Below, in pieces: positions 16,790 through 28,487 of a stretch of DNA of 64,000 nucleotides. Origin of the DNA: Rhizobacter sp. OV335 (GTDB lineage: Bacteria; Pseudomonadota; Gammaproteobacteria; Burkholderiales; Burkholderiaceae_C); assembly GCF_900142965.1 (NCBI RefSeq), contig NZ_FRCQ01000020.1, positions 1 through 64,000 on the forward strand. The letters run 5' to 3'. The notes under the pieces were generated by a model. The model had not been told where the DNA came from. It did no database searches and worked only from the letters and a program-made list of their open reading frames with translations. Position 1 is the stretch's first letter. Every line of letters begins with the position of its first letter. The position numbers and the translations under genes are program-made.

Positions 16790-17629
16790 ATGCACCACCC
16801 GATCTGCGCCACCTGCGGAACGCAGTTCGCCGCAGCTGCTGCGGCACCCGCGCGCTGTCCGATCTGCGAGGACGAGCGGCAGTACGTCGGCTGGCAGGGC
16901 CAGCGCTGGACCACGATGGCCGAACTGGCGTCAAGCCATACCTTGCGATTGGAGGACGATGGCGGCGTGCTGGGCATCGGCCTGGCGCCGGGCTTCGCGA
17001 TCGACCAGCGCGCGATGTGGCTGCCCACCGATGCGGGGAACATCCTGTGGGAGTGCGTCAGCCTGGTGACCGACGAAGCGGTCGCCGCATTGAAGGCGCG
17101 CGGGGGCGTCGATCTGATCGCCATCTCGCACCCGCATTTCTATGCGTCGATGGTCGACTGGAGCGAGGCGCTGGGCGGCGTGCCGATCCTGCTGCACGAG
17201 GCGGATCGAGAGTGGGTGATGCGGCCGTCCAGCCGGATCCGCTTCTGGCAAGGCGACGAGCTGCGGCTCTCCGAGAGCGTGGCGCTGCTGCGCTGCGGCG
17301 GCCACTTCGCGGGCAGCACGGCCTTGCACTGGCAGCGCGGACCGCGGCCGGGCGGTGCGCTGTTTCCAGGAGATGCGTTGCAAGTGGTGGCGGATCGCAG
17401 GCACGTGTCGTTCATGTACAGCTACCCCAACCTGGTGCCGATGAAGGCGGCGGATGTCGTGCGCATGAGGCAGGTGCTCGAGGGTCGATCCTTCGACGAT
17501 GTGTTCGGCTACACCTGGGGTCGCAACATCCGCGGCGAGGGGCGCGCCGCAGTCGACGGCTCCTTCGATCGCTACCTGCGTGCGATGGGTGTAGAAGCCG
17601 ATGAATCGACGTTGCAAGAAAATTGTTGA
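16790..17629 (+). CDS. Zinc-ribbon MBL-fold-like hydrolase
   Basis: The 279-residue protein has an N-terminal zinc ribbon formed by CATCGTQF and RCPICEDER (four cysteines). A metallo-beta-lactamase-like domain follows: NILWECVSLVTDEAV, ISHPHFYASMVDW, HEADREWVM, CGGHFAGSTALHW and LFPGDALQVV. The canonical HxHxDH motif is reduced to HPHFYA, so the metal site is non-standard and catalytic type is uncertain. The ATG at 16790 has an AAGGAGAA ribosome binding site upstream. Divergent transcription from a MocR-type gene suggests induction by an amino or pyridoxal-linked compound. A promoter for the following small transcript overlaps the end of this gene. Confidence 0.75.
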   Translation: MHHPICATCGTQFAAAAAAPARCPICEDERQYVGWQGQRWTTMAELASSHTLRLEDDGGVLGIGLAPGFAIDQRAMWLPTDAGNILWECVSLVTDEAVAALKARGGVDLIAISHPHFYASMVDWSEALGGVPILLHEADREWVMRPSSRIRFWQGDELRLSESVALLRCGGHFAGSTALHWQRGPRPGGALFPGDALQVVADRRHVSFMYSYPNLVPMKAADVVRMRQVLEGRSFDDVFGYTWGRNIRGEGRAAVDGSFDRYLRAMGVEADESTLQENC

Positions 17630-17654
17630 CGATTGAGTAAAGACTATTTACAGT
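17626..17654 (+). promoter_or_regulatory. Sigma-70 promoter upstream of the tRNA module
   Basis: The -35 TTGACG (17626-17631) and -10 TACAGT (17649-17654) have an exact 17-base spacer. The surrounding DNA is markedly AT-rich for this genome. The -35 overlaps the stop codon of the MBL gene. Transcription would enter the 17660-17881 structured region and, past the terminator, the tRNA genes. Confidence 0.65.
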
Positions 17655-17699: not shown

Positions 17700-17819
17700 G
17701 TGACCAAGCCGCTCCACACCGTCGCTTACCGACCCCTGCAGGGTCAGGTCGCGCTGCTGTGTCAGCGCCGGCTTGATCGACACGAGGATCGGGTTCAACC
17801 GGGAGAAGGGTGCGCTTGA
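17700..17819 (+). CDS. Possible 39-residue small protein in a structured leader
   Basis: A GTG-started frame preceded by CAGGAA encodes 39 residues beginning VTKPLHTVAYRPLQGQ and ending QPGEGCA. It lies between a good promoter (17626-17654) and a strong terminator (17850-17881). The same stretch contains several hairpins: GACCC/GGGTC near 17734, GTGTC/GACAC, GAAGGG/CCCTTC and CTCTG/CAGAG. It may therefore be a structured RNA rather than a gene. I recognise no family. Confidence 0.25.
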   Translation: MTKPLHTVAYRPLQGQVALLCQRRLDRHEDRVQPGEGCA

Positions 17820-17849
17820 GGCACGCCCTTCCAAGCTCTGTTTGCAGAG

Positions 17850-17881
17850 GCCCGGATCTGATGAGGATCCGGGCTTTTTTT
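17850..17881 (+). terminator. Rho-independent terminator
   Basis: GCCCGGATC (17850-17858) pairs with GATCCGGGC (17866-17874) as a 9-bp perfect stem with a 7-base loop, followed by seven T. It closes the short transcript from the promoter at 17626-17654 before the tRNA genes. Either the tRNAs depend on readthrough or they have their own promoter in 17882-17985, where I see no clear one. Confidence 0.9.
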
Positions 17882-17985
17882 CATTTCGTCTCTATCAGGA
17901 AACCCTTGTGGAGCTTCGGCTTCGAGGGCGGAAATCGGCCGCAACGATTGGGCGGCGCCGGAACCCGTGACCGGATGGATTGAAT

Positions 17986-18061
17986 GCTCCGTTAACTCAG
18001 TGGCCAGAGTGCCGGCCTGTCTAGCCGGAAGCCGCGGGTTCGACTCCCGCACGGGGCGCCA
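17986..18061 (+). tRNA. tRNA-Asp (GTC), divergent
   Basis: The cloverleaf is complete: acceptor GCTCCGT/ACGGGGC with one T-G pair, D stem ACTC/GAGT with an AGTGGCCA loop, anticodon stem CCGGC/GCCGG with loop CTGTCTA, T arm GCGGG-TTCGACT-CCCGC, discriminator G and encoded CCA. The anticodon GTC reads Asp codons. It differs from ordinary bacterial tRNA-Asp at known identity positions: base 10 is A instead of G, base 38 is A instead of C, and the second pair is C-G. It may be a foreign isoacceptor carried by a mobile element. Confidence 0.85.
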
Positions 18062-18071
18062 ACAGCAACAT

Positions 18072-18157
18072 CTCGACGTAGCCAAGTGGTCGAAGGCATC
18101 TGGCTGCAAACCAGACGGCGCAAGCCCGCATCCGTTCGAATCGGATCGTCGAGTCCA
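18072..18157 (+). tRNA. tRNA-Cys (GCA) with long, class-II-like variable arm
   Basis: It lies 10 nt after tRNA-Asp. The acceptor is CTCGACG/CGTCGAG, the D arm GCC/GGC with an 11-base loop, and the anticodon stem TCTGG/CCAGA with loop CTGCAAA (GCA). The T arm is ATCCG-TTCGAAT-CGGAT, followed by discriminator T and encoded CCA. U73 plus GCA is the CysRS identity set. The variable region is 14 bases (CGGCGCAAGCCCGC) and can form a GGC/GCC stem closed by a GCAA tetraloop. The 3-bp D stem with a large loop also matches class II tRNAs such as tRNA-Ser. Total length is 86 nt against about 74 for normal tRNA-Cys. The first pair is C-G rather than G-C. Confidence 0.85.
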
Positions 18158-18244: not shown

Positions 18245-18820
18245 ATGCAGCCCCACTCTCACAACCACGTGCTGCAACTCGACATCCAGGGAACGCCGCA
18301 GGCGTGGATCTCGCTCGAGCATGCGGCCTCCCACGTGGCGGCCGATGCGGTGGCCTGGGTCGAGGGCGACGGCCCGCTGGCCACGCTGCGCGGCGGCTTC
18401 AACGTCGCGCGCGGGCGGCAGTCGGTCATCGACGTGCACCCGATCATTGCAATGCGCGGTGCGTCGCGCGTCAACCTGTTCGACGTGGCGCCGGCCTTCA
18501 GCAAGAACAAGCTGTTCCGCCGTGACCGGCTGACCTGCGCCTACTGCGCCCAGCGCTTCTCGGAGCGTGACCTGCAGTGCGAGCACATCGTGCCGGAGTC
18601 GCGCGGCGGCCGCTGGACCTGGATGAACCTCGTCACCGCTTGCGGTGCGTGCAACGGCCGCAAAGCCGCTCGCACGCCTGAGGAAGCACGCATGCCGTTG
18701 GTTTACCTGCCGTACGTGCCCAGCCGCTTCGAGGACTTCCTGCTCGAAGGCCGGCACATCCGGGCCGACGTGCACGACTGGTTGTCGGCGCGGCTGCCGA
18801 AGGGATCGCGCCTGGGCTGA
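18245..18820 (+). CDS. HNH endonuclease
   Basis: The 191-residue protein has a C-terminal HNH nuclease of the two-CxxC (McrA/COG1403) type. The motifs are CAYCAQRFSERDLQCEHIVP, then ESRGGRWTWMNLVTACGACN and GRKAARTPEEA. The metal-binding His of EHIVP, the Asn of WMNL and both CxxC knuckles are present, so it looks active. The N-terminal 90 residues are unassigned. The ATG at 18245 is fixed by an excellent AAAGGAGG ribosome binding site 6 bases upstream. An earlier in-frame start would run through tRNA-Cys. It lies 87 nt after the tRNA pair and 11 nt before a sigma-like gene. Free-standing HNH nucleases beside tRNA genes are typical of phages and mobile elements. Confidence 0.88.
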   Translation: MQPHSHNHVLQLDIQGTPQAWISLEHAASHVAADAVAWVEGDGPLATLRGGFNVARGRQSVIDVHPIIAMRGASRVNLFDVAPAFSKNKLFRRDRLTCAYCAQRFSERDLQCEHIVPESRGGRWTWMNLVTACGACNGRKAARTPEEARMPLVYLPYVPSRFEDFLLEGRHIRADVHDWLSARLPKGSRLG

Positions 18821-18831
18821 CAGCCTGCCGC

Positions 18832-19485
18832 ATGCGGACCATCGACGAGTTCCTGCGGGCCCAGGCAACTGCACTGCGACGAATCGCCGGTGCGACGCGT
18901 GGCGAGATGAGTGTCGACGACGTCAAGCAAGAGGCGTGGCTCGTCGCTGCCGACATGGGGCAGAAAAGAGGCTACCCGGTCGACTTCGACGATCCTGACG
19001 ATCAGCAGTCCGTCCTCAAGTGGCTCTACTGCAAGCTCGTGAAGTTCGCCGAGAAGCAGATGCGCCACGCCATTCGCATCGACAAGAACTGGGACCAGGA
19101 GGATGCCGAAGTCGCCGCCAGCGCCTTGGCGCGCCTGCTGACCTCGCCGCTGGATTCGGACCCACTGGTCCGATTGCAACAAGCCGAGGACGAGATCGAC
19201 TACGCGAAGTTGGTCCGACACAGCTACTCCGAAGCGTCGGCCTATGTGCAACTGCTGATCAGGTTCGACTGGGATGTCCATGCACTTGCTGCGGACTTGC
19301 GCGTCTCCGTCAAGACCTTGCGCAAGCGTCTGCGCGTGTGCGGCATCAAGGCGAAGGTTCAGCCTTCGCTCTTCGACGGCCTGGCGTTCATCGATCCCGG
19401 GTTCGAACCGCGTCGCGCGCTGCGACCCAGCATTCAACGCACTGTCGAGAAAGTCGTCCACCAGCGATATTGGCGCTTCGGTTGA
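18832..19485 (+). CDS. Sigma-factor-like / helix-turn-helix protein
   Basis: The 217-residue protein has an N-terminal stretch RRIAGATRGEMSVDDVKQEA followed by WLVAADM, which resembles sigma-70 region 2 (ECF-like DxxQE(A)(W/F)L). A helix-turn-helix VHALAADLRVSVKTLRKRLR near residues 148-168 is placed like region 4. The C-terminal 45 residues are unassigned. It may be a mobile-element sigma factor or an ECF-derived regulator; catalytic function is not expected. It follows the HNH gene by 11 nt, so the two are probably co-transcribed, and it converges on jetD with a 5-nt gap. Confidence 0.55.
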   Translation: MRTIDEFLRAQATALRRIAGATRGEMSVDDVKQEAWLVAADMGQKRGYPVDFDDPDDQQSVLKWLYCKLVKFAEKQMRHAIRIDKNWDQEDAEVAASALARLLTSPLDSDPLVRLQQAEDEIDYAKLVRHSYSEASAYVQLLIRFDWDVHALAADLRVSVKTLRKRLRVCGIKAKVQPSLFDGLAFIDPGFEPRRALRPSIQRTVEKVVHQRYWRFG

Positions 19486-19490
19486 GCGGC

Positions 19491-20693
19491 CTATTCCCTT
19501 GCCGGCAACGAATCAAAAACCTCTTGGTCGATGAAGCGGCCGTGAAGTCGCATCGCCGGCAGCAATTCGTGGTCAGCGTATGGGCAGCCTGTCTCACCGG
19601 GGTCGGATTGCTGAGCCTTCGAGGCCTGATCCGGCAGGTGGCCGTTCCCCTGCGCCAACAAGCGTGCCAGCGCGCGATACCCGGCTTGCCATGCACTCGC
19701 ATGTGGAAAGACCTCGCGCAGGTTGCCGAGGATCTGCATGCCTGCGAAGTCAAGGTCGCCGAAAAAGAAGACGGGAACTTCCGCCGCATTGAAGAGCCAA
19801 GCCTCGATGGCCGGCAACACGGCATTGGCCGATGGGGCGCGCAGGTACGGTCGGCACCCTGAGCGCGAGCGCAGCCGCCGTGCGCTGCCCCGGAAGCCGG
19901 CGGCATAGACGAGCAGGCTGCGGTCCCAGGCGGGAGCGCGTGCGTCGGCCATGTGCTCGAAGGTCACGAGGTTCTCGACGAACAGCACGTCCGCGAAACT
20001 GCCATCCCCGGGCGGCGCCAGCAACAGCTGGATCGGTGGCTCGTGAAACTGGCCTGGCACGGCGCCGGTCAGGCGAAGCAGTTCTTCCCGGTTGTCCAAC
20101 AGCTTGGAGCGTCCCTGAAACACACGCGCCGAAGCCTCGCGCAGCGCCATGGACCGGCCGGAGCGACACAAGTCGATCAAGGCCGACAGGCTGTGGGTCG
20201 CCTCGTCCAGCGAAAGACTCTCCAGCAGCGTCATCGGGTTGCGGGCCAGGTAGTCGAGCAGCCCCTGGGGGTTGCCGGGCAGGGTCGCTCCTGGCGCGGG
20301 CGGCGTGGCGGCCCATTGCGTCCGCAGGTGCTGCAACCACTGCTGCTGCCATCGCAAGGCCTGCGGCATGTAGCCGGCCCAGGCTGCCAGGGCATCGAAG
20401 TCGCGAAGCTCGAGTCTCGGCTTGCGGTCGGTGAAGCCGGCAAAAGCGCGTGGCGCATCGATCTGCAGTCCGACCCAGCCTGTTTCGCACAGCTCGTCCA
20501 GCAACATGACCAGCAGCTGCAGCTGGTCGGCGTCAGCCGCAACGTGCAACTCGGGCGCGGTCTTGCGGTCCAGCGGCAGGCGCACGGGGCCCTGACCGAT
20601 GCTGCGCTCGGCTTTGGCGAGAAGAGCGCGGGCCAGGCGCTGGAGGAATGGGTGGGCTGCAGGCGGCTCGACAGGGGGCAACGAGGGCAGCAT
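19491..20693 (-). CDS. jetD: Wadjet nuclease subunit JetD
   Basis: The 400-residue protein has a helical N-terminal arm domain (about 1-200) and a C-terminal TOPRIM nuclease domain. The catalytic glutamate is in LFVENLVTFEH (E240) and the DxD loop in VFFFGDLDFAGMQI (312-315). The tail FIDQEVF also fits DUF2220-type proteins. In Wadjet, JetD cuts circular DNA after the JetABC complex has extruded it. The key residues are intact. It is the last gene of the jet operon, 3 nt after jetC. Confidence 0.9.
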   Translation of the reverse strand: MLPSLPPVEPPAAHPFLQRLARALLAKAERSIGQGPVRLPLDRKTAPELHVAADADQLQLLVMLLDELCETGWVGLQIDAPRAFAGFTDRKPRLELRDFDALAAWAGYMPQALRWQQQWLQHLRTQWAATPPAPGATLPGNPQGLLDYLARNPMTLLESLSLDEATHSLSALIDLCRSGRSMALREASARVFQGRSKLLDNREELLRLTGAVPGQFHEPPIQLLLAPPGDGSFADVLFVENLVTFEHMADARAPAWDRSLLVYAAGFRGSARRLRSRSGCRPYLRAPSANAVLPAIEAWLFNAAEVPVFFFGDLDFAGMQILGNLREVFPHASAWQAGYRALARLLAQGNGHLPDQASKAQQSDPGETGCPYADHELLPAMRLHGRFIDQEVFDSLPARE

Positions 20694-20696
20694 GGT

Positions 20697-23600
20697 TCAG
20701 ACCGTGGTGCCGGCGCCGCTCGAATCAGGTGAGGAAGCGCCCATCGGCGCCGCGGCTGCGTCCCATTCCTTGCGTGCAGCGTCGCGGGCCTGGGCCGCAT
20801 GCTCGGCCCACAGGCGCGTGAGGGCGTCGCGGTGCAGCGTCTTCTCCTGCACATCGCTGATGAACAGTTCCTGGCCGTCGCGCCGCGCGAGCACCTTGGA
20901 GAAGGTGAACTCCTTGTCGAACTCCGGCTTCACCGCACCGGACTTCGAGGTCGGCATCGCCACCACGAGTTGCAGCCCCAGCGTGCGCGACAGAAACTGC
21001 AGCACGCTGCGCGAACGCGATTCATCCATCTTCGAGAACGCCTCGTCGCTGAGCATCAGCCGCAGCGCCGGGGCTTCGCGCCGCTCTCGCCCGAAGTGGC
21101 CGAGCGCATGGGCGAGCACCGCCGAGCGCACGACGTAGAACGGCGTCTCCAGCTCACCGCCCGAGCCGGTGCCCCAGGTGGACAGCCGAGTGGTGCCGAC
21201 CGGGCTGATACGCACGATGTCGTAGCGGCGGTAGTTGCGGTAGTCGGCGAGTTCCTTCAGCGCCCGCTCGTTGGCACCTTGGTCGTTGGCGAGCAGCAGC
21301 CGGCGAATGTCCTCCGCGGTGGCGCGTTGTTCATCGCTGAGACGGGGCGACGCGAAGATCGAGCCGCGATCGTGTTCCAGTCCTTCCACGGCACCCTCGA
21401 CCGCATCGAAGAACTCGCACACCTTCTTCATGCGGGGAATCCAGTCCCATTCCAGCTGGAAGCTGTCGTTGCCGAAGCGGATGTCCTTCAGGTGGCGGTT
21501 GAGCCGTTGCAGCACGACAGCGCCTTGCTTCACGTCGTCGCGAACCTTGAAGCAGAAGCTGCTGGTGAAGACGTGGTTGAAGCTGCCTTCCGCCTCTTGC
21601 AGCGAGCGGGCGTTGTCGGCCAGCCCGATGGCACGCTGGCGCTGGGCGTGCTCATCGATGGCGTTGCGGGTCTGAAGAACAAGCGGCAGCAATTCCTCGA
21701 GGCGGTCGATGCTGCGGGGCAGATCGCTCCAGGCGAAACGCTCGCTGTCGTCGCGCGCGCCGCCCAGGTAGGTGCCGACCGCCTGCTGGAGCTCGCGCAG
21801 CGTGCGCGGCAGGTTCTCGCGCAGGGTCTGCGCGCGATGGCGCAAGGCGTCCAGGCTGGTCTGCGCCTCGGCTGCCAGTGCTTGCGCGTCGCTGACCAGT
21901 TGCGGTTCGGTGGCCAGTTGCGGCACCGCGCCGGCGAAGCGAGCAGCCCAGACCGTGGCGTTGGTGCAGGCTATCTCCAGATCCGGAAGCCGTAGATCGA
22001 GGATCTGCTCACGGTCACGCAAAGTGGCCAGTTCCTTGTCGACGGCACCGACCAGTTTCAGCTCGTCGTCGCGGAGGCCCTTGACGACTGCAAGGCGTTC
22101 GTCAAGCGACCGGCGCTCGGCTTCCAGTCCCTCGATGGAAGACAAGTCGAGGGCCTTCAGCGCCTGCTCGGCGGTGGCGTGCTGCGCCTGGCTCTCCAGA
22201 ACGGCCAGCACCAGCGGCGACAGCGGTGTGAATGCGGCGCCGTTGAACATGCGCGCGACCGCCTTCAAGGATTGGTCCAGCAACTGCAGCGTGCGCGCCT
22301 CGTGAGTCAGCCGCGCGAGTTCGTCCTCGCACCATGTGCGGCGGCGCTGGCGAGCCGCTTCCCCGAAGCTCAGGTCGCTGTCCGGCGCGCGGCACGCGAA
22401 CATGCCGTACCCGCGGCTGCCCAGTCCCTGTTCCATCAGGCCTTGCGGCGTGCGCGCAAGCTCTTCCTCGCTGTCCACCTTGCGCACGCGGCCGTACTGC
22501 GCCATCAGGAAGGCGTTGGCGACGGGATGCCGGCACACCAGTTCGTGCAGGATGGCGCGGCCTTCGGGCCGGCGGCCTTCGGTGTCCTCCATGGCTTTGC
22601 GACCCTGCACGACCTTGGGCGAGCGCACCGGGAAGCGCCGCTTCACCAGCCGTGCGCAGAGCGCCTCGTGGCCTGCCTCGACGATGATCGCGAACCGATC
22701 GCCACCCATGTAGCCCTCGATGGCGTTCTGCCACGTGCTGCCAGTGCGCGGCTCCACCAGCTGGGCCAGCAGATGTGGGCGAGCCTGCGGCAGCTCGCGC
22801 TCGATCAGCGCCACGGCCTCGTGGTTGTCAGGTGGGGCGACGCTGCGTCCGGCCTGCAGTTGCCGCAGTTCGGCGTCGCGCTGCTCGGCCTCGTCCTTCA
22901 ACGCCTTCGCGCGTGCGCCTGCGTCGGCGAGTGCCTGCACGACGGCGGCCTGCACCGAGTCGTCGCCCTCGTGGATGCCGCGCTGCAGGATGGCCAGGTT
23001 GGCATCGAAGACCTCCAGTTCGAAGGCGGGCAGTTCCACGTCGAGGCGAGCTGGCCGCGCGTATGCCCGCGCCATGTCCGGCCACGGCTTCAACACGCTA
23101 GAGGCGGCCGGTCGAAGCGCCTGCACCGCGTCGGCCAGCGCGGACATGGCGGTCAGGTCGAGCGTCAGCAGATGCGTCAACTGATCGACCATCGCGCCGA
23201 TGCCGTGCGCAGCCTCCTGGACACGGGCCCAGTGCAGGCGGAACTGATCTGACTGCAGCAGGACCTGATTCTCCAGCGAGTCTTTCTCCCGGGCCACCTC
23301 GCTGCCCGCCAGGCGCTGCTTCACCATTCCCTGTTGTTCCCGCAACTGGACGTCCTGAGCGTCGAGCGAGGCCAGCTTCTCGGCCGACTGGCCTTGCTTC
23401 CTGTCCTGCGTCGCGATCTGACGCTTCACGGAGGCCAGCTCGTCCCCGGTTTCGCTGAGCACCCGCAACGCGTGCGCAATGGTGATGACGACGAAGCGGC
23501 GAGATTCGTCGAGCACGGCACCGGCGCGTTCACCGGCGGCATCGAGCCGATCGAGGTTGGTCTGCAGGCGATCGGCCTCCGCCTTCAGGCCTGCGATGGA

Positions 23601-24371
23601 GCGCATCAGCTCGCGCATCTTGTCGAGGTCGCGGCTGAAGTCGTGCGGCTCCAGGATCTCGTCGCGCACCAGGTCGTTGACGTTGCCCAGCTCCTTGTAG
23701 GCCATGGCCTTGACGATGGACTTGCCGGCGCGCACGGCCTCGTGCTCGCCCACGGCGGTCTTTCCCATCAGCGCGCCATAGAGGTGTTGCAGATAGCCGC
23801 CCTTGTCGGGAAAGCGCTGGACCACCGTTTCCTTGTCGGCTTTCAGGCGGTGTTGCAGCTGCAGGTAAAGCTCCTTCAGCGGCAGCGGCGCGTCACCCAG
23901 GGCTTCGCCGCTGCGCCGTGACAGATCCGTCAGCGACAAGGCCCGGCGCACGATGAAGAACTGCGGCGGACCCTGCAGCGTGGCGCGCCGTCCTTCTTCG
24001 AACGCTTCCACGCCGACCAGCGCCGTGAACGATGGCGCCTGCTCGCCCGCGCTTTCCGAAGGCTCGAACACGATGCCCACATAGCTGGTCGAGCGCGTGC
24101 GCATGAACACGCCATCGGCCTGCTGGCCCAACGCATAGGCCGCCAGCGTCCGCGGCTCCTTGCCGCCGCGACGGCTCTGCGTGGATTCGTCCTGGCCGAT
24201 GTTGAACTGCACCAGGTGCTGGTGCGCGGCCGTCAGCACGGTCTGGATCGCGTCGAGCAGCGTGGATTTTCCCGACCCCGATTCTCCCGTGAGCAGCACG
24301 GTGTCTGCGAAGACCCATTCACGGTCATCGAGTGAACCCCAGTGCCAGGTCAGCAGCTTGCCGATCTTCAC
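20697..24371 (-). CDS. jetC: Wadjet SMC-like ATPase JetC
   Basis: The 1224-residue MukB/SbcC-like motor has its N-terminal ATPase lobe with Walker A TGESGSGKSTLLDAI (28-42). A very long helical coiled-coil middle follows. The C-terminal lobe has signature-like GTGSGGELETPFY, Walker B LMLSDEAFSKMDE and VVAMPTSKSG. This is the loop-extruding subunit that recognises small circular DNA. Translation starts at GTG 24371, overlapping the jetB stop by four bases (GTGA). Length is normal for the family and no break is seen. It is the largest gene of the defence operon. Confidence 0.92.
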   Translation of the reverse strand: MKIGKLLTWHWGSLDDREWVFADTVLLTGESGSGKSTLLDAIQTVLTAAHQHLVQFNIGQDESTQSRRGGKEPRTLAAYALGQQADGVFMRTRSTSYVGIVFEPSESAGEQAPSFTALVGVEAFEEGRRATLQGPPQFFIVRRALSLTDLSRRSGEALGDAPLPLKELYLQLQHRLKADKETVVQRFPDKGGYLQHLYGALMGKTAVGEHEAVRAGKSIVKAMAYKELGNVNDLVRDEILEPHDFSRDLDKMRELMRSIAGLKAEADRLQTNLDRLDAAGERAGAVLDESRRFVVITIAHALRVLSETGDELASVKRQIATQDRKQGQSAEKLASLDAQDVQLREQQGMVKQRLAGSEVAREKDSLENQVLLQSDQFRLHWARVQEAAHGIGAMVDQLTHLLTLDLTAMSALADAVQALRPAASSVLKPWPDMARAYARPARLDVELPAFELEVFDANLAILQRGIHEGDDSVQAAVVQALADAGARAKALKDEAEQRDAELRQLQAGRSVAPPDNHEAVALIERELPQARPHLLAQLVEPRTGSTWQNAIEGYMGGDRFAIIVEAGHEALCARLVKRRFPVRSPKVVQGRKAMEDTEGRRPEGRAILHELVCRHPVANAFLMAQYGRVRKVDSEEELARTPQGLMEQGLGSRGYGMFACRAPDSDLSFGEAARQRRRTWCEDELARLTHEARTLQLLDQSLKAVARMFNGAAFTPLSPLVLAVLESQAQHATAEQALKALDLSSIEGLEAERRSLDERLAVVKGLRDDELKLVGAVDKELATLRDREQILDLRLPDLEIACTNATVWAARFAGAVPQLATEPQLVSDAQALAAEAQTSLDALRHRAQTLRENLPRTLRELQQAVGTYLGGARDDSERFAWSDLPRSIDRLEELLPLVLQTRNAIDEHAQRQRAIGLADNARSLQEAEGSFNHVFTSSFCFKVRDDVKQGAVVLQRLNRHLKDIRFGNDSFQLEWDWIPRMKKVCEFFDAVEGAVEGLEHDRGSIFASPRLSDEQRATAEDIRRLLLANDQGANERALKELADYRNYRRYDIVRISPVGTTRLSTWGTGSGGELETPFYVVRSAVLAHALGHFGRERREAPALRLMLSDEAFSKMDESRSRSVLQFLSRTLGLQLVVAMPTSKSGAVKPEFDKEFTFSKVLARRDGQELFISDVQEKTLHRDALTRLWAEHAAQARDAARKEWDAAAAPMGASSPDSSGAGTTV

Positions 24372-25057
24372 GGCAAGCTGCCCTCGGGAGGCGCTGGAGC
24401 CGCAGCAGGCGGCAGGTTCCTTCCGGCCAGCCGCAGGGCGTCTTCCATCGCATCATCGCTCACGAAGCTCATGACGGGCCGCAGCACCGCCAGGCCCATC
24501 TGCATGTCGCCCGCATCGTCGCGCTCCACGAAGTGCACGACACGGTGCTTGCGCAAGTCGCGCAGCAGCGTCATGCGCTCGGTGGCCGAGTTCGGCAATC
24601 GATGCGCCAGCAGCGACACGACGGCTTGGGACAGCTCCTCGAGGCTGATGGCCAGTCGCTCGTCGACCAGTGGCCGTCGGCCCGTGAGCGCTTCGGTGTA
24701 GAGAAAGCGCAGCGCAATGACCGTGGCCACGAAATCGCGTGACAGACGGGCACGCAGCCGCTTCACGCCGTCTTCATCGTCCTCGCCGCCGCCTTCCCCG
24801 GGCGGGTACAGGCGCAGCAGCCGGGCCTCCGGGTCGTGCGCGAGCACGAAGCCCATGCAGCCGAACCACTCGCGCAGCAGCTGTTCGCACTGCAGTGCAT
24901 CGTCGTAATGCCTGGCTTCGGGCTGGGAGTAGTCGCGCCAGAGCACGCCGGTGGCCAGCAGACGCCCTGCCAGCTCGGCGAAGCGGGCGGCCTTCACGTT
25001 GCCGGCGCCTTCCGTGGAGAGACGCTGTTCGACGAAGTGGGCGAGCGATTGCGTCAT
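24368..25057 (-). CDS. jetB: Wadjet kleisin-associated (KITE-like) subunit JetB
   Basis: The 229-residue protein lies between jetA and jetC with ATGA/GTGA overlaps on both sides. Its winged-helix-rich sequence (LREWFGCMGFVLAHDPEARL; RFLYTEALTGRRPLVDERLA; ATERMTLLRDLRKHRVVHFV) fits the MukE/KITE-like JetB position. Such subunits bind the kleisin JetA and bridge it to the SMC heads. The family number is not certain by eye: DUF4194 is the usual label for type I, and other Wadjet types use different domains. The call rests partly on operon order. Confidence 0.85.
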   Translation of the reverse strand: MTQSLAHFVEQRLSTEGAGNVKAARFAELAGRLLATGVLWRDYSQPEARHYDDALQCEQLLREWFGCMGFVLAHDPEARLLRLYPPGEGGGEDDEDGVKRLRARLSRDFVATVIALRFLYTEALTGRRPLVDERLAISLEELSQAVVSLLAHRLPNSATERMTLLRDLRKHRVVHFVERDDAGDMQMGLAVLRPVMSFVSDDAMEDALRLAGRNLPPAAAPAPPEGSLP

Positions 25058-26490
25058 CTCGACGGGGGCTCCAACCGGTCCGTGGGCTGGACATCCAGCA
25101 CGTAGTTGTCCGCTGCGAAGAACTCGTTGCGAACCTGTGCGTCGGTCTTGCGGGCCCGCACGCGCAACTGGCGACCTTCCGCCGACCGCGCCGCTCCGAC
25201 GGCGTGCAGCACGCGCACGGCATCGGCCGCGGTGGCGACGGGCAGGACATCCAGTGCGACGGGGCCGTGCTCCAACAGCGGCAGCAAGCCCTTCAGCACG
25301 TCACGGTCGCTGAAGGCAAAAGCCTCTGCCTCGGCGCGGCGCAGCATCGCCAAGAGCCGGCTCTCATCGTCCACCACCAGCGGGGACTGCGCGGCATGGG
25401 CCGCTTCGCGGTCACGCAGTATCCAGCGCAGTACACCGCCGGGCAGACGGGCTTCGCAGGTCGCGAGGCGATCGGCCAGCGCGTCCAGCAGGGTGTCGCG
25501 CTGCGAATCCGGGCGCTCCTTCAACCAGGCCATCGTGCGGCCCAGCGCGGATTCGGCGCCGTAGTCCAAAGACAGCGCCTGCCGCAGCAGGCTGGTGAAG
25601 CGGCGCACGTAGTTGTTCATCTCCGAACGCAACATCGGCAGCTTGAGGCTGCACGCGGCCTCGACCATGTTCTCGATGCGGTCGGCCAGCCACAGCAGCG
25701 GGCTGCGGCCCTGCACTTCCTGCTCCAGCCAGGGCGCGCGCTGAAGGAGATGTCCATCGGCCTGGGCGCGCAGTTCGCCATCCAGCGCGCGCACCTCGTC
25801 CAGCGCCTCGACGATCTGGCCCCGGTGACGCTCGGCGGAGTCGGCCACCAGGCGCACCGCGTACTCATGCATGAAGCGCTTCTCGATGAAGTCGTTGAAC
25901 TCGCTCCAGGCCACCTTCTGCGCGAGGGCTTCTCGGGTCAGGCTCTGGATCAACTGGCGGAAGTACTCGATGTCGTCCTGCAGGTCTTGCACGACGCGGC
26001 TCGCGAATTCCTGTGCGTCCAGCAACTCGTCCGCATCGCGTGTGGCAATGAAGGCCGTCAGCGCCTTGCGCGCCGAGCGCATGTTGCGCTGGCGGGTCTT
26101 GGCACGCGAGTCGTCGAGGTTGGAGAAGGTCTCGCTGAAGGCCTTGCCGGCGCGGCTGAGCTTGAGCGTCGGCTTGAGATCGATGGGGTCGCGATAGTCC
26201 TCCAGCCAGCCATGGTCCTTGAGCTTGCGCAGAAGCTCGCCGGCGTAGGCCCGCTCCTCCTCGGGACGCACCGGTTGCTCCGCTTCGAAGGCTTGCGCGC
26301 GCAGCTGGGGATCGGCGAGTGCGCGCAAGATGATGTCGAGCACGACCTCGCGGGTCAGAGTTTCCGCATAGTCGGCGTTGGCCCCGTGCACGCGCTCGTG
26401 CAGCGCACGCAGCGCGGCCGTACACAGCGCGCGGTTGTCGTGCGTGAGCGGGCGGAAGAATTGCTCGCGAGGCGGTGTGAAGAACTGCAC
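25054..26490 (-). CDS. jetA: Wadjet kleisin subunit JetA
   Basis: The 478-residue protein starts at GTG (26490) with the pattern QFFTPPREQFFRPLTHDNRA, then TREVVLDIILRAL. Helical segments and a winged helix follow, and the C-terminus is consistent with kleisin binding to SMC heads (LRVRARKTDAQVRNEFFAAD). The N-terminal pattern looks closer to the JetA form annotated DUF5716 than to DUF3375, so the Wadjet subtype is left open. It is the first jet gene, 77 nt downstream of the TOPRIM-like gene on the same strand, and overlaps jetB by four bases. Confidence 0.85.
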   Translation of the reverse strand: MQFFTPPREQFFRPLTHDNRALCTAALRALHERVHGANADYAETLTREVVLDIILRALADPQLRAQAFEAEQPVRPEEERAYAGELLRKLKDHGWLEDYRDPIDLKPTLKLSRAGKAFSETFSNLDDSRAKTRQRNMRSARKALTAFIATRDADELLDAQEFASRVVQDLQDDIEYFRQLIQSLTREALAQKVAWSEFNDFIEKRFMHEYAVRLVADSAERHRGQIVEALDEVRALDGELRAQADGHLLQRAPWLEQEVQGRSPLLWLADRIENMVEAACSLKLPMLRSEMNNYVRRFTSLLRQALSLDYGAESALGRTMAWLKERPDSQRDTLLDALADRLATCEARLPGGVLRWILRDREAAHAAQSPLVVDDESRLLAMLRRAEAEAFAFSDRDVLKGLLPLLEHGPVALDVLPVATAADAVRVLHAVGAARSAEGRQLRVRARKTDAQVRNEFFAADNYVLDVQPTDRLEPPSR

Positions 26491-26567: not shown

Positions 26568-27161
26568 TCAGCCTCGACCAGCGACATGGGTTTGCCACTC
26601 TTTGCACAGCTTGCGAAACGACCGGCTGTTGTCGAAGGCTTGTTGCAGATCGATGCGGGCGGAAAATGCAGGTTGATCCAGAATTTCGCTGTACGTACCG
26701 CTTTGCATGTGCTCCCTCATCCAGCCCTTGGCATTGCGAGGCGATTCGGCCAGGATTTTCTCCTCAGGGGCCAACGAAAACCCACGTGCCCCATGCAAGG
26801 AAGGCGCGGCGGCGATGAACCAGGCTTCGAACTCCCGGTTCGCCAGCACCACCGACAAGCGCTGATGCGGTATGTGCTGTTGTGCCCGTTGGTGAATTTC
26901 TCGGCCCAGGCTGGCAGGGCAGTCGTCATCGGCATCCAGCACGATCAGAACCCACCCATCGCGGCCACTCTTGGCCGCTGCCAGAAGCAGCTGTCTGCGA
27001 AATTCATCGTCCTTGTTCAGAAACTTGTCGCGCCGAACCCGGATGGGTTGCAGCAGGTTGACCAGCGCAGCCGGTTCCCGTTCCGAAGCCAGTCTTCGCA
27101 ACAAGATCGGCAACGCGGAAACCTCTCCGTCGCCCTCCACGATCGATGCGATCGAGATCAC
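26568..27161 (-). CDS. DUF4276-type TOPRIM-like protein
   Basis: The 197-residue protein begins MISIASIVEGDGEVSALPIL. The E..GDGE segment (E9, E13) followed by GWVLIVLDADDDCP (77-80) is the TOPRIM acidic pattern seen in OLD-type nucleases and topoisomerases. VVLANREFEAWFIAAAPSLH is typical of DUF4276. It is probably a nuclease or nuclease-like effector. It starts at GTG 27161, overlapping the stop of the upstream ATPase gene by four bases (GTGA), which makes a tightly coupled two-gene unit. Comparable ATPase plus TOPRIM pairs include PARIS (AriA-AriB), and OLD fuses both parts. Specific activity is inference. Confidence 0.82.
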   Translation of the reverse strand: MISIASIVEGDGEVSALPILLRRLASEREPAALVNLLQPIRVRRDKFLNKDDEFRRQLLLAAAKSGRDGWVLIVLDADDDCPASLGREIHQRAQQHIPHQRLSVVLANREFEAWFIAAAPSLHGARGFSLAPEEKILAESPRNAKGWMREHMQSGTYSEILDQPAFSARIDLQQAFDNSRSFRKLCKEWQTHVAGRG

Positions 27162-28363
27162 GACCGGGCCTCGCCGAAGAGCTCTGTCTGGCTTGCGCTC
27201 TGCTGCGCGATGATGTCGCGATCGGGGGCCAGCTGATTCATGCGCAGAAGCTCTCCGGCGGAAAACAGGTGATTGCGCAGTACTTGGCGAGAGGCTTCGT
27301 CCAATGGCGCAATTTTCGTCTCCCCGCCTTCCGAGACGACGGAGATGATGGAATCGGCATCGATGCCGCGGTCATCCAGCAGGTCAGGGCTGTGACTTGT
27401 CACCAGGACTTGCGTGTGGTTGGCGGCATGCACCAGCACCTCGCGCAAGGCGGCGCTGGCCGCAGGATGCAGCGCAGTTTCGGGCTCTTCAATGCCGATC
27501 AACGTCGGCGAGTAGTCGACGTTGCTTTGCAGCAGTGCCGTCATCACGCCGAGCGCTCGCAGCGTGCCATCGGACATGTTCTGCGCCAGAAATTTCCAAG
27601 GATGTTTGGCACCCGCCATTTCCTGTCGAAACTCCAGCGTTTCCATGGGGCCGATGGACTTGCGCTCCATGCCGTGCACCATGGGCACCACCGATTGAAG
27701 ATACTCTTCGATGGTCTTCACGCGATCGGGCGCAACACGCTCCAGATGCCCGATCACGCTGGCGATGTTCTCGCCAGCGGGCTTGAGCAAGCGACCGTCC
27801 TGCGGCTTTTGAAGTTCCCGCATCAGCTCGGGATTCAGGTTGTAGAAACCCATCGCAGTCAATGTGTCGAATACTGGCCTGAATGCCGTGAAGCCGGATG
27901 CCGCTACCAAGGCAAGTCGGTCTGCCGTCACCGACGGGAAGGTGGGTTCGCTGCTGTCGCGCAGCTGGCCCTTGGAAATGCGGAAGAAGGGGCCTTTGCC
28001 GATTCCGGTGATGACGCATTCTTCGTGCTGCACTTCATAACCGCCACTGGCCATCGCACCGATGTCGAAGGCATATCGCCCCTCACGACCATCTCGCAGG
28101 CGAAATTCAAGTCGAATGCCGAAATGCGTCGGATGGCCACTGGAGCGGCGGCGCACTTCGTTCAAGCCGCCACGCGCGTTGATGGCGCTGTCCAGGGATC
28201 CGGCCAACGCGTCTCGAACAAAGTGCAGAGCGTCCAGAAAATTGCTTTTTCCGGCGCCGTTGTGACCGACCAGGTAGGTCAGAGGGAGCAAGCGAACATC
28301 ACAATGGCCGATGCTCTTGTAGTTGCGAAGCACCACACGCCGAATGCAAACTGTCTGGGCCAT
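27158..28363 (-). CDS. ABC-type AAA ATPase (AAA_21/COG4637-like), defence-pair partner
   Basis: The 401-residue protein has a single ABC/SMC-type ATPase domain with a helical insertion. Walker A is VGHNGAGKSNFLDAL (32-46), the signature region AQNMSDGTLRALGVM, Walker B LIGIEEPETALHP, and the switch histidine lies in LVTSHSPDLLD. This is the OLD/RecF-like layout without a fused nuclease; the TOPRIM part is the overlapping next gene. The ATG at 28363 with GAGAGG 6 bases upstream is preferred over an in-frame start at 28438. It lies 124 nt downstream of yicC on the same strand and is the first gene of the defence run. Its promoter is expected in 28364-28487. Confidence 0.88.
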   Translation of the reverse strand: MAQTVCIRRVVLRNYKSIGHCDVRLLPLTYLVGHNGAGKSNFLDALHFVRDALAGSLDSAINARGGLNEVRRRSSGHPTHFGIRLEFRLRDGREGRYAFDIGAMASGGYEVQHEECVITGIGKGPFFRISKGQLRDSSEPTFPSVTADRLALVAASGFTAFRPVFDTLTAMGFYNLNPELMRELQKPQDGRLLKPAGENIASVIGHLERVAPDRVKTIEEYLQSVVPMVHGMERKSIGPMETLEFRQEMAGAKHPWKFLAQNMSDGTLRALGVMTALLQSNVDYSPTLIGIEEPETALHPAASAALREVLVHAANHTQVLVTSHSPDLLDDRGIDADSIISVVSEGGETKIAPLDEASRQVLRNHLFSAGELLRMNQLAPDRDIIAQQSASQTELFGEARS

Positions 28364-28487
28364 GTAAACCTCTCTGTCTTGAAGGAGTCGTGGCGGATGT
28401 GCTTGCAAGGGCGGCCTCTCGCCGAGCATGTTTGCCACGCGCGTGCCCAGGGACGCGGCACAGGGCCGGCATGAACTGCAGCAGACC

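Follow-up and report, generated by a model that had tools for sequence, protein, structure and literature searches.

The canonical bacterial tRNA-Cys is about 74 nt long and has a short variable loop, and the locus described here raises the question of what a tRNA-Cys of 86 nt and class-II-like shape is, which amino acid it carries and what purpose it serves. The gene lies on the plus strand of the window, by which we mean the whole 64,000-nucleotide stretch of Rhizobacter sp. OV335 DNA that was analysed (contig NZ_FRCQ01000020.1, positions 1 to 64,000). The original prediction, made from the letters of this stretch, proposed that the tRNA could be charged by CysRS, or mischarged by SerRS through its long arm and so mistranslate Cys codons. 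As we describe below, it is the setting of the locus, more than any mistranslation, that makes it interesting.

A conserved tRNA-Cys with a long variable arm

ARAGORN calls a tRNA-Cys(GCA) at 18072-18157, and the Rfam tRNA model scores the same stretch at 47.8 bits, its gathering score being 29. The cloverleaf has an overall 7/5 arrangement, consisting of a 7-bp acceptor stem (CTCGACG/CGTCGAG) with a C1-G72 pair, a D arm with a 3-bp stem and an 11-nt loop, an anticodon arm with a 5-bp stem and the loop CTGCAAA, a 14-nt variable region (18116-18129, plus strand; tRNA positions 45-58, as read from the sequence) in which a 3-bp stem carries a GCAA loop, and a 5-bp T stem, with U73 and an encoded CCA completing the 86 nt. 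This is the class-II-like cloverleaf as it was first drawn, with the D arm, C1-G72, GCA and U73 all seen in the sequence. The GNRA-capped variable stem of the original prediction is likewise there in the window, but the GNRA cap is not kept across the family, where the loop caps in the alignment include AACA, GACA and GTCCA. The Rfam tRNA model has 50 matches across the Rhizobacter sp. OV335 genome, in which the DNA of the long-armed gene matches at a single place. The canonical tRNA-Cys for which a search had been proposed is also encoded there, as an ordinary 74-nt tRNA-Cys(GCA) (locus L009, 1675-1748) whose shape the 86-nt gene does not match, and the long-armed tRNA-Cys is therefore an extra one.

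Comparison with relatives establishes that this is a real, conserved tRNA with family-wide compensatory changes. Among six copies from the genus, all 138 pair cells are standard and five pairs are changed on both sides. A wider alignment has 25 members, leaving out three truncated Cys genes, all forms of 80-81 nt and, apart from L232, those of viruses, and including two members (L121 and L237) whose 4-bp variable stems are out of register; 98.3% of its 575 pair cells are standard, and 110 cells are changed on both sides, against a shuffle mean of 26.9 and with none of 500 shuffles as high. These changes fall at 19 of the 23 pairs, including all three pairs of the variable arm, and each of the five helices, which are 96-100% paired, has at least one pair changed on both sides. 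No member of the alignment departs from U73 or GCA (25/25), not even those with quite different acceptor stems. A reading of 18072-18157 as a pseudo-tRNA is ruled out by this compensatory evolution.

The gene belongs to a family of 86-88-nt tRNA-Cys, with GCA and U73, of the tRNA arrays of Burkholderiales. Within the genus, a covariance model finds full copies in four of 11 genomes (once each in G000 and G006, twice each in G001 and G008) and a gene cut within the T arm in G003, G004 and G009. In three genus genomes, the long Cys is seen to be cut in the T loop by a common replacement sequence (L065, 9379-9464; L066, 9472-9557; L071, 9750-9834). Among 399 genomes of the family, where tRNA-Tyr is the nearest canonical background of the model, we looked at the rows above about 73 bits plus G025, and further long Cys genes may exist; at least 28 new loci were found, and the 21 that were scanned comprise 13 tRNA-Cys(GCA) and eight tRNA-Tyr. 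The gene in G025 is an 81-nt Cys within a tRNA array. At E 1e-17, 399 genomes of the order add two more carriers, both GCA, and 398 genomes of the phylum return the window's own copy and one tRNA-Tyr, with nothing further. Of the 19 other genomes carrying a long Cys, 15 have a canonical 74-nt tRNA-Cys match; of the four lacking one, two are drafts from the same family and two belong to a different family of the order. As a finding that would speak against it, the original prediction had named close relatives with the same arm in a conserved ordinary tRNA-Cys; this is half borne out, in that the arm is present in relatives, but in array tRNAs and not in the ordinary tRNA-Cys.

The family extends to mobile DNA. 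The gene has one DNA match in PLSDB, the conjugative 599-kb megaplasmid of Methylibium petroleiphilum PM1, and 87-nt forms, found via the HNH gene described below, are carried on plasmids of Variovorax RA8 and Polaromonas P1-6. A DNA search of phage records with the tRNA-Cys gave partial matches to tRNA-Ser only. In IMG/VR, an exact class-II Cys pattern matched eight contigs, in five of which ARAGORN calls a Cys tRNA (86 nt in L232, 89 nt in L234, 83 nt in L236 and 77 nt in L229 and L235); class-II-like Cys genes are present alongside tRNA clusters in a few IMG/VR contigs, and a stricter class-II Cys pattern gave no matches there.

The tRNA array unit

The tRNA-Cys shares one tRNA-array unit with a tRNA-Asp, an HNH gene and two RNA elements, A and B, neighbours whose membership the original prediction had missed. 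The tRNA-Asp(GTC), at 17986-18061 (plus strand), is of array lineage, with the loop CTGTCTA where the canonical loop in the genome is CTGTCAC, and an identical 76-nt sequence occurs in G002 and G006. Both tRNAs of the window unit are redundant with the canonical set of the genome; stretches from relatives hold two to 22. All 13 tRNA-Cys from other genera in the scanned family loci lie among three to 22 tRNAs within about 3 kb, while G001 has, on a contig of 83 kb (L063), 22 tRNAs spread over 19 kb, 21 of them within 2.4 kb, and a further nine near its chromosomal copy; the corresponding stretch of the PM1 megaplasmid holds 27. Ordinary 72-74-nt Cys genes are found in some arrays (L149, L177, L242, L247), and many arrays are without Cys. 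The arrays of G002 and G006 lie at the corresponding chromosomal site and are collinear with the window, with six tRNAs in G006. The locus is best explained as a mobile tRNA array unit of which a reduced copy sits in the chromosome. Elsewhere, element B and a lone long Cys form a cassette (L070, 7768-7940) about 3.9 kb upstream of that genome's second array.

The island in which the unit sits bears defence genes downstream of the tRNA-Cys, as had been proposed. An ORF of 217 aa (18832-19485, plus strand) without a family match (Pfam), the membership of which in the array unit is uncertain, is also present at the same site in G002; its start gives the impression of a small sigma factor. There follows a Wadjet type I system, JetABCD (19491-26490, minus strand), which is context outside the array unit and is absent at this site in G002 and G006, and adjoining it, at a site variable among Rhizobacter genomes, an AAA_21 and DUF4276 pair (26568-28438, minus strand) that matches PADLOC HEC-01A/B.

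The HNH endonuclease gene (18245-18820, plus strand; 191 aa) has a profile match to HNH_5 and belongs to an array-linked family. Among the best 80 of 90 relatives, at least two tRNAs lie within about 3 kb of 43 of the 54 homologues with at least 60% identity and of one of the 26 below 60%, a control that consists of less similar homologues, mostly from Comamonas and Delftia, so that the comparison is not independent of phylogeny. The same division is seen for RtcB (PF01139, an RNA ligase), present at 38 of 54 close-HNH loci and at none of 26 distant ones, and for a slipin/Band_7 gene (22/54 and 1/26). In the HNH counts, as in those for element B, some places appear under two locus ids or come from contigs that are cut. 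All 37 RtcB genes of at least 50% identity are on the HNH strand, and in G007 (L069) about 250 bp separate the HNH match from the start of RtcB; the window's own genome has its RtcB elsewhere (C34), not at the array. The similarity of the HNH protein to Cas9, a Geobacter HNH enzyme and McrA, as well as its PADLOC matches (PtuB, restriction enzymes, DpdF), is limited to the HNH core, and its target may therefore be DNA or RNA.

Upstream of the tRNAs, element A (17786-17884, plus strand) is a conserved leader ending in a predicted intrinsic terminator (17846-17878); upstream of the element lies a promoter-like site, TTGACG-17-TACAGT (17626-17654, plus strand), assigned by consensus match only. 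The predicted fold in the window has three hairpins, and a consensus drawn from 31 sequences bears out the terminator and, in part, the first hairpin; a search of Rfam gave no match. By our own reading of the pairing, an invariant CCGGG is a potential pairing partner for the terminator's 5' arm, making an attenuator possible.

Element B (17897-17982, plus strand) is a conserved structured RNA of about 80 nt, which takes a tRNA slot in arrays. Its loops lie near AACGATTGG and AACCCGTSA, and its stems covary. In a three-stem structure drawn from the same sequences used for counting, with a first hairpin only 80-86% paired, 12 of 18 pairs show changes on both sides, a count that no shuffle out of 500 reaches. 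At E 1e-5, a model of the element has matches in 60 of the 299 genomes drawn from the family, with 47 matches in 41 genomes at 43 bits or more and the rest, at 31-41.5 bits, possibly due to chance; a draw of 299 phylum genomes yields two, namely the window's own and one of its family. Of 47 occurrences, 44 have a tRNA no more than 60 nt downstream, some places being counted twice. Among 30 element B loci, tRNAs lie within about 1.5 kb at 23 and an HNH match is present at 15; in the seven without tRNAs, rtcB is directly downstream in three (G109, G213, G068), an HNH gene is present in G215, and three have neither HNH nor rtcB in about 9 kb. An exact pattern of element B gave no match in IMG/VR phages. 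Element B was rejected as a known RNA, Rfam giving no match up to E 5, as was the idea that either element is a sigma54 promoter, since a scan of 18 stretches turned up the consensus in just one, L069, at a distance from the array.

The arrays also show a systematic change in the anticodon loop. For this comparison an array locus was three or more tRNAs, which may include a few ordinary ones, with viral loci dropped. In the seven-base loop, 301 of 487 distinct array tRNAs differ from the canonical isoacceptor of the window's genome (the reference used throughout, in place of each array's host), and 220 of these 301 are changed at positions 37-38. For 12 control isoacceptors, a set without Leu(CAG), Phe, Gln and His, 117 of 161 array tRNAs differ compared with none of 69 ordinary tRNAs (47 loci of relatives), a contrast by which the idea of evasion by phage tRNAs is extended to arrays in bacterial genomes and plasmids. 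The changes are isotype-specific, affecting Asp (37/37), Leu(CAG) (23/23) and Phe (21/23), with few or none in Trp (2/16) and Asn (0/12). Array Cys loops differ from the canonical one in 22 of 29 cases, 18 of them only at position 32 and three at 37-38; the larger changes of array Cys sit in the D and variable arms.

Cysteine or serine identity

Bacterial Cys determinants are U73, C3-G70, G2-C71 and GCA, with U73 alone giving Cys identity to minihelices, while it is chiefly the variable arm, rather than the anticodon, that determines serine identity (PMC9976931). The window tRNA-Cys has U73, GCA and C3-G70; it is without G2-C71, having U2-A71, and without the G15:G48 of E. coli, having G15-C48 in our numbering. 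By overall identity, the nearest of 42 canonical tRNAs is Ser(UGA), at 73%, versus 57% for canonical Cys. The likeness to tRNA-Ser, which the original prediction noted in the D arm, thus holds overall, the window's own Ser(CGA) being outside the set compared. By class, it is not a tRNA-Ser, given its GCA anticodon and a 14-nt variable region with a 3-bp stem. In the genome's canonical set (G000, L218-L228 set), tRNA-Ser(GCT) has U73 where G73 is usual, so that U73 alone is insufficient against SerRS, which makes serine mischarging slightly likelier and the backup role proposed below slightly less likely. In arrays, all 26 Cys of at least 80 nt ending in CCA have U73, versus G73 in 21 of 24 Ser with CCA.

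A tree built without the anticodon loops unites all 36 Cys sequences (UFBoot 93). Inside this clade, the deep nodes have support of 42-62, two long forms branch first and the canonical Cys (10 sequences, support 100) are nested; the sister branch is a Ser (support 32). With such weak deep nodes, a Cys tRNA may have acquired the long arm or may have kept it from a class-II ancestor. An origin by anticodon switch of a Ser tRNA was set aside: Ser(UGA) is nearest by identity, but the tree groups all of the Cys. Mischarging by SerRS, with Ser inserted at Cys codons, would draw on that nearness, on the U73 shared with Ser(GCT) and on a serine identity that is mainly variable-arm-based (PMC9976931). 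Against it stand the constancy of U73 and GCA in all 25 members, the split between array Cys and array Ser at position 73, the grouping in the tree and a variable stem of just 3-4 bp, which together make the mistranslation of Cys codons less likely than charging by CysRS and, in our judgement, highly improbable, although the U73 of Ser(GCT) counts against its dismissal.

A proposed backup role and its alternatives

The reading that we favour, with modest confidence, is that the long-armed tRNA-Cys is a backup tRNA, charged by CysRS and reshaped to escape tRNA-cleaving enzymes; its expression, its charging and its nuclease resistance are what we infer from the features described above. The functional unit would comprise leader A, RNA B, the tRNAs and the HNH nuclease, with slipin and RtcB added in many relatives. 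In it, the tRNA-Cys would be a working spare isoacceptor, charged via U73 and GCA, whose enlarged D loop and long variable arm may have been remodelled such that enzymes cutting canonical tRNAs fail to recognise it, the anticodon loops of its array mates presumably being remodelled to the same end. As the anticodon loop of the Cys is little changed, its nuclease resistance would rest on the D and variable arms. The spare set could then sustain translation when tRNAs are damaged by phage defence, toxins or the weapons of rivals. There are parallels in phages, where loop mutations in tRNAs are predicted to block anticodon nucleases (PMC10264068) and where, as told in PMC13096335, the tRNA-Tyr of T5 resists cleavage by retron-Eco7 via its distinctive variable loop; the same source describes cleavage of host and phage tRNA-Tyr in the variable loop by Septu, and amplification of a tRNA-Tyr segment by the homing endonuclease SegB. 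In Anabaena, too, the tRNAs of the trn operon are regulated together with HNH, RtcB and slipin genes under translational stress (PMC10272220). A class-II-like tRNA-Cys that keeps the main cysteine identity elements puts to the test which departures CysRS and the ribosome accept and which features tRNA cutters read.

Several observations count against a backup role, namely the gene copies cut in the T arm, the arrays with an ordinary Cys or none, the missing determinants and the U73 of Ser(GCT). By analogy, a result from Anabaena would also count against it, removal of the trn operon having left the kasugamycin and BMAA resistance of a repressor mutant unchanged (PMC10272220). The same operon is induced by ribosome-targeting drugs, and more trn expression favours survival (PMC10272220), which would suit a supplementation of codons or dosage for a plasmid or phage and its host, the odd shapes being the drift of a separate lineage. 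The broad isoacceptor set of arrays such as L063 is in keeping with this, but loop changes that are isotype-specific, repeated and absent from the ordinary tRNAs are poorly predicted by drift alone, and we consider supplementation a possibility, if an unlikely one. It is distinctly unlikely that the gene is the relic of a decaying array, out of use in the window strain; the reduction from six tRNAs at this site in G006 to two, and the broken genes of G003, G004 and G009, speak for decay, whereas the window copy is intact, leader A, RNA B and the HNH gene are kept, and compensatory changes run through the family. A decoy function, as raised for YrlA (PMC7790460) and brought to mind by the tRNA-sized element B of the same array, seems very unlikely for a molecule that keeps Cys identity elements and an encoded CCA, for which a decoy has no need.

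In a bolder version of the backup role, to which we give very little credence, the HNH enzyme would cut canonical tRNAs, the array tRNAs, including the long Cys, would be immune, RtcB would mend the halves, and leader A would act as an attenuator that frees the array when translation fails. This builds on the resemblance of the HNH core, among other HNH families, to PtuB of Septu, part of a tRNA-cleaving system.

Some of these features are already known from other systems. Plasmid and phage arrays of Mycobacterium are likewise dense mobile clusters, redundant with host tRNAs, with HNH genes and with altered D, anticodon and variable arms (PMC5966550, PMC12803027), so that neither the arrays, their HNH genes nor the altered tRNA bodies are new; one M. 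intracellulare plasmid array that we analysed differs in having a 72-nt Cys, and the relevant passages of these papers do not mention elements A and B or the linkage to RtcB. Anabaena PCC 7120 has a 26-tRNA megaplasmid operon, trn, within a TrcR regulon that also contains HNH, RtcB and slipin genes, the parts being joined by one shared repressor, whereas the Burkholderiales unit joins the same four kinds physically (PMC10272220). The selC* tRNA-Cys is also an extra Cys tRNA with GCA, U73 and a longer variable arm, but is 8/4 and Sec-like with a bulge at 51a (PMC7609411), whereas the window tRNA-Cys is 7/5, has no bulge and belongs to arrays. Phage tRNA clusters that evade tRNA cutters share altered anticodon and variable loops, with SegB adjoining the tRNAs, but are phage-borne, and the passages describing them contain no class-II Cys (PMC10264068, PMC11555353, PMC13096335). 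A literature search covering few subscription journals found no published report of a class-II-shaped Cys lineage, of RtcB linkage in these arrays or of elements A and B; some phage genome papers mention RtcB, tRNA genes and HNH. As one unit here combines tRNA reserves with RtcB, an HNH nuclease and a pair of RNA elements that have no match in Rfam, the purpose of plasmid and phage tRNA arrays becomes testable at one locus. A minor observation concerns the array tRNA-Leu, some of which are of only 77-78 nt with short variable loops (L073, 9360; L144, 4325; L150, 4336; L178, 3188; and others), a mirror image of the long Cys.
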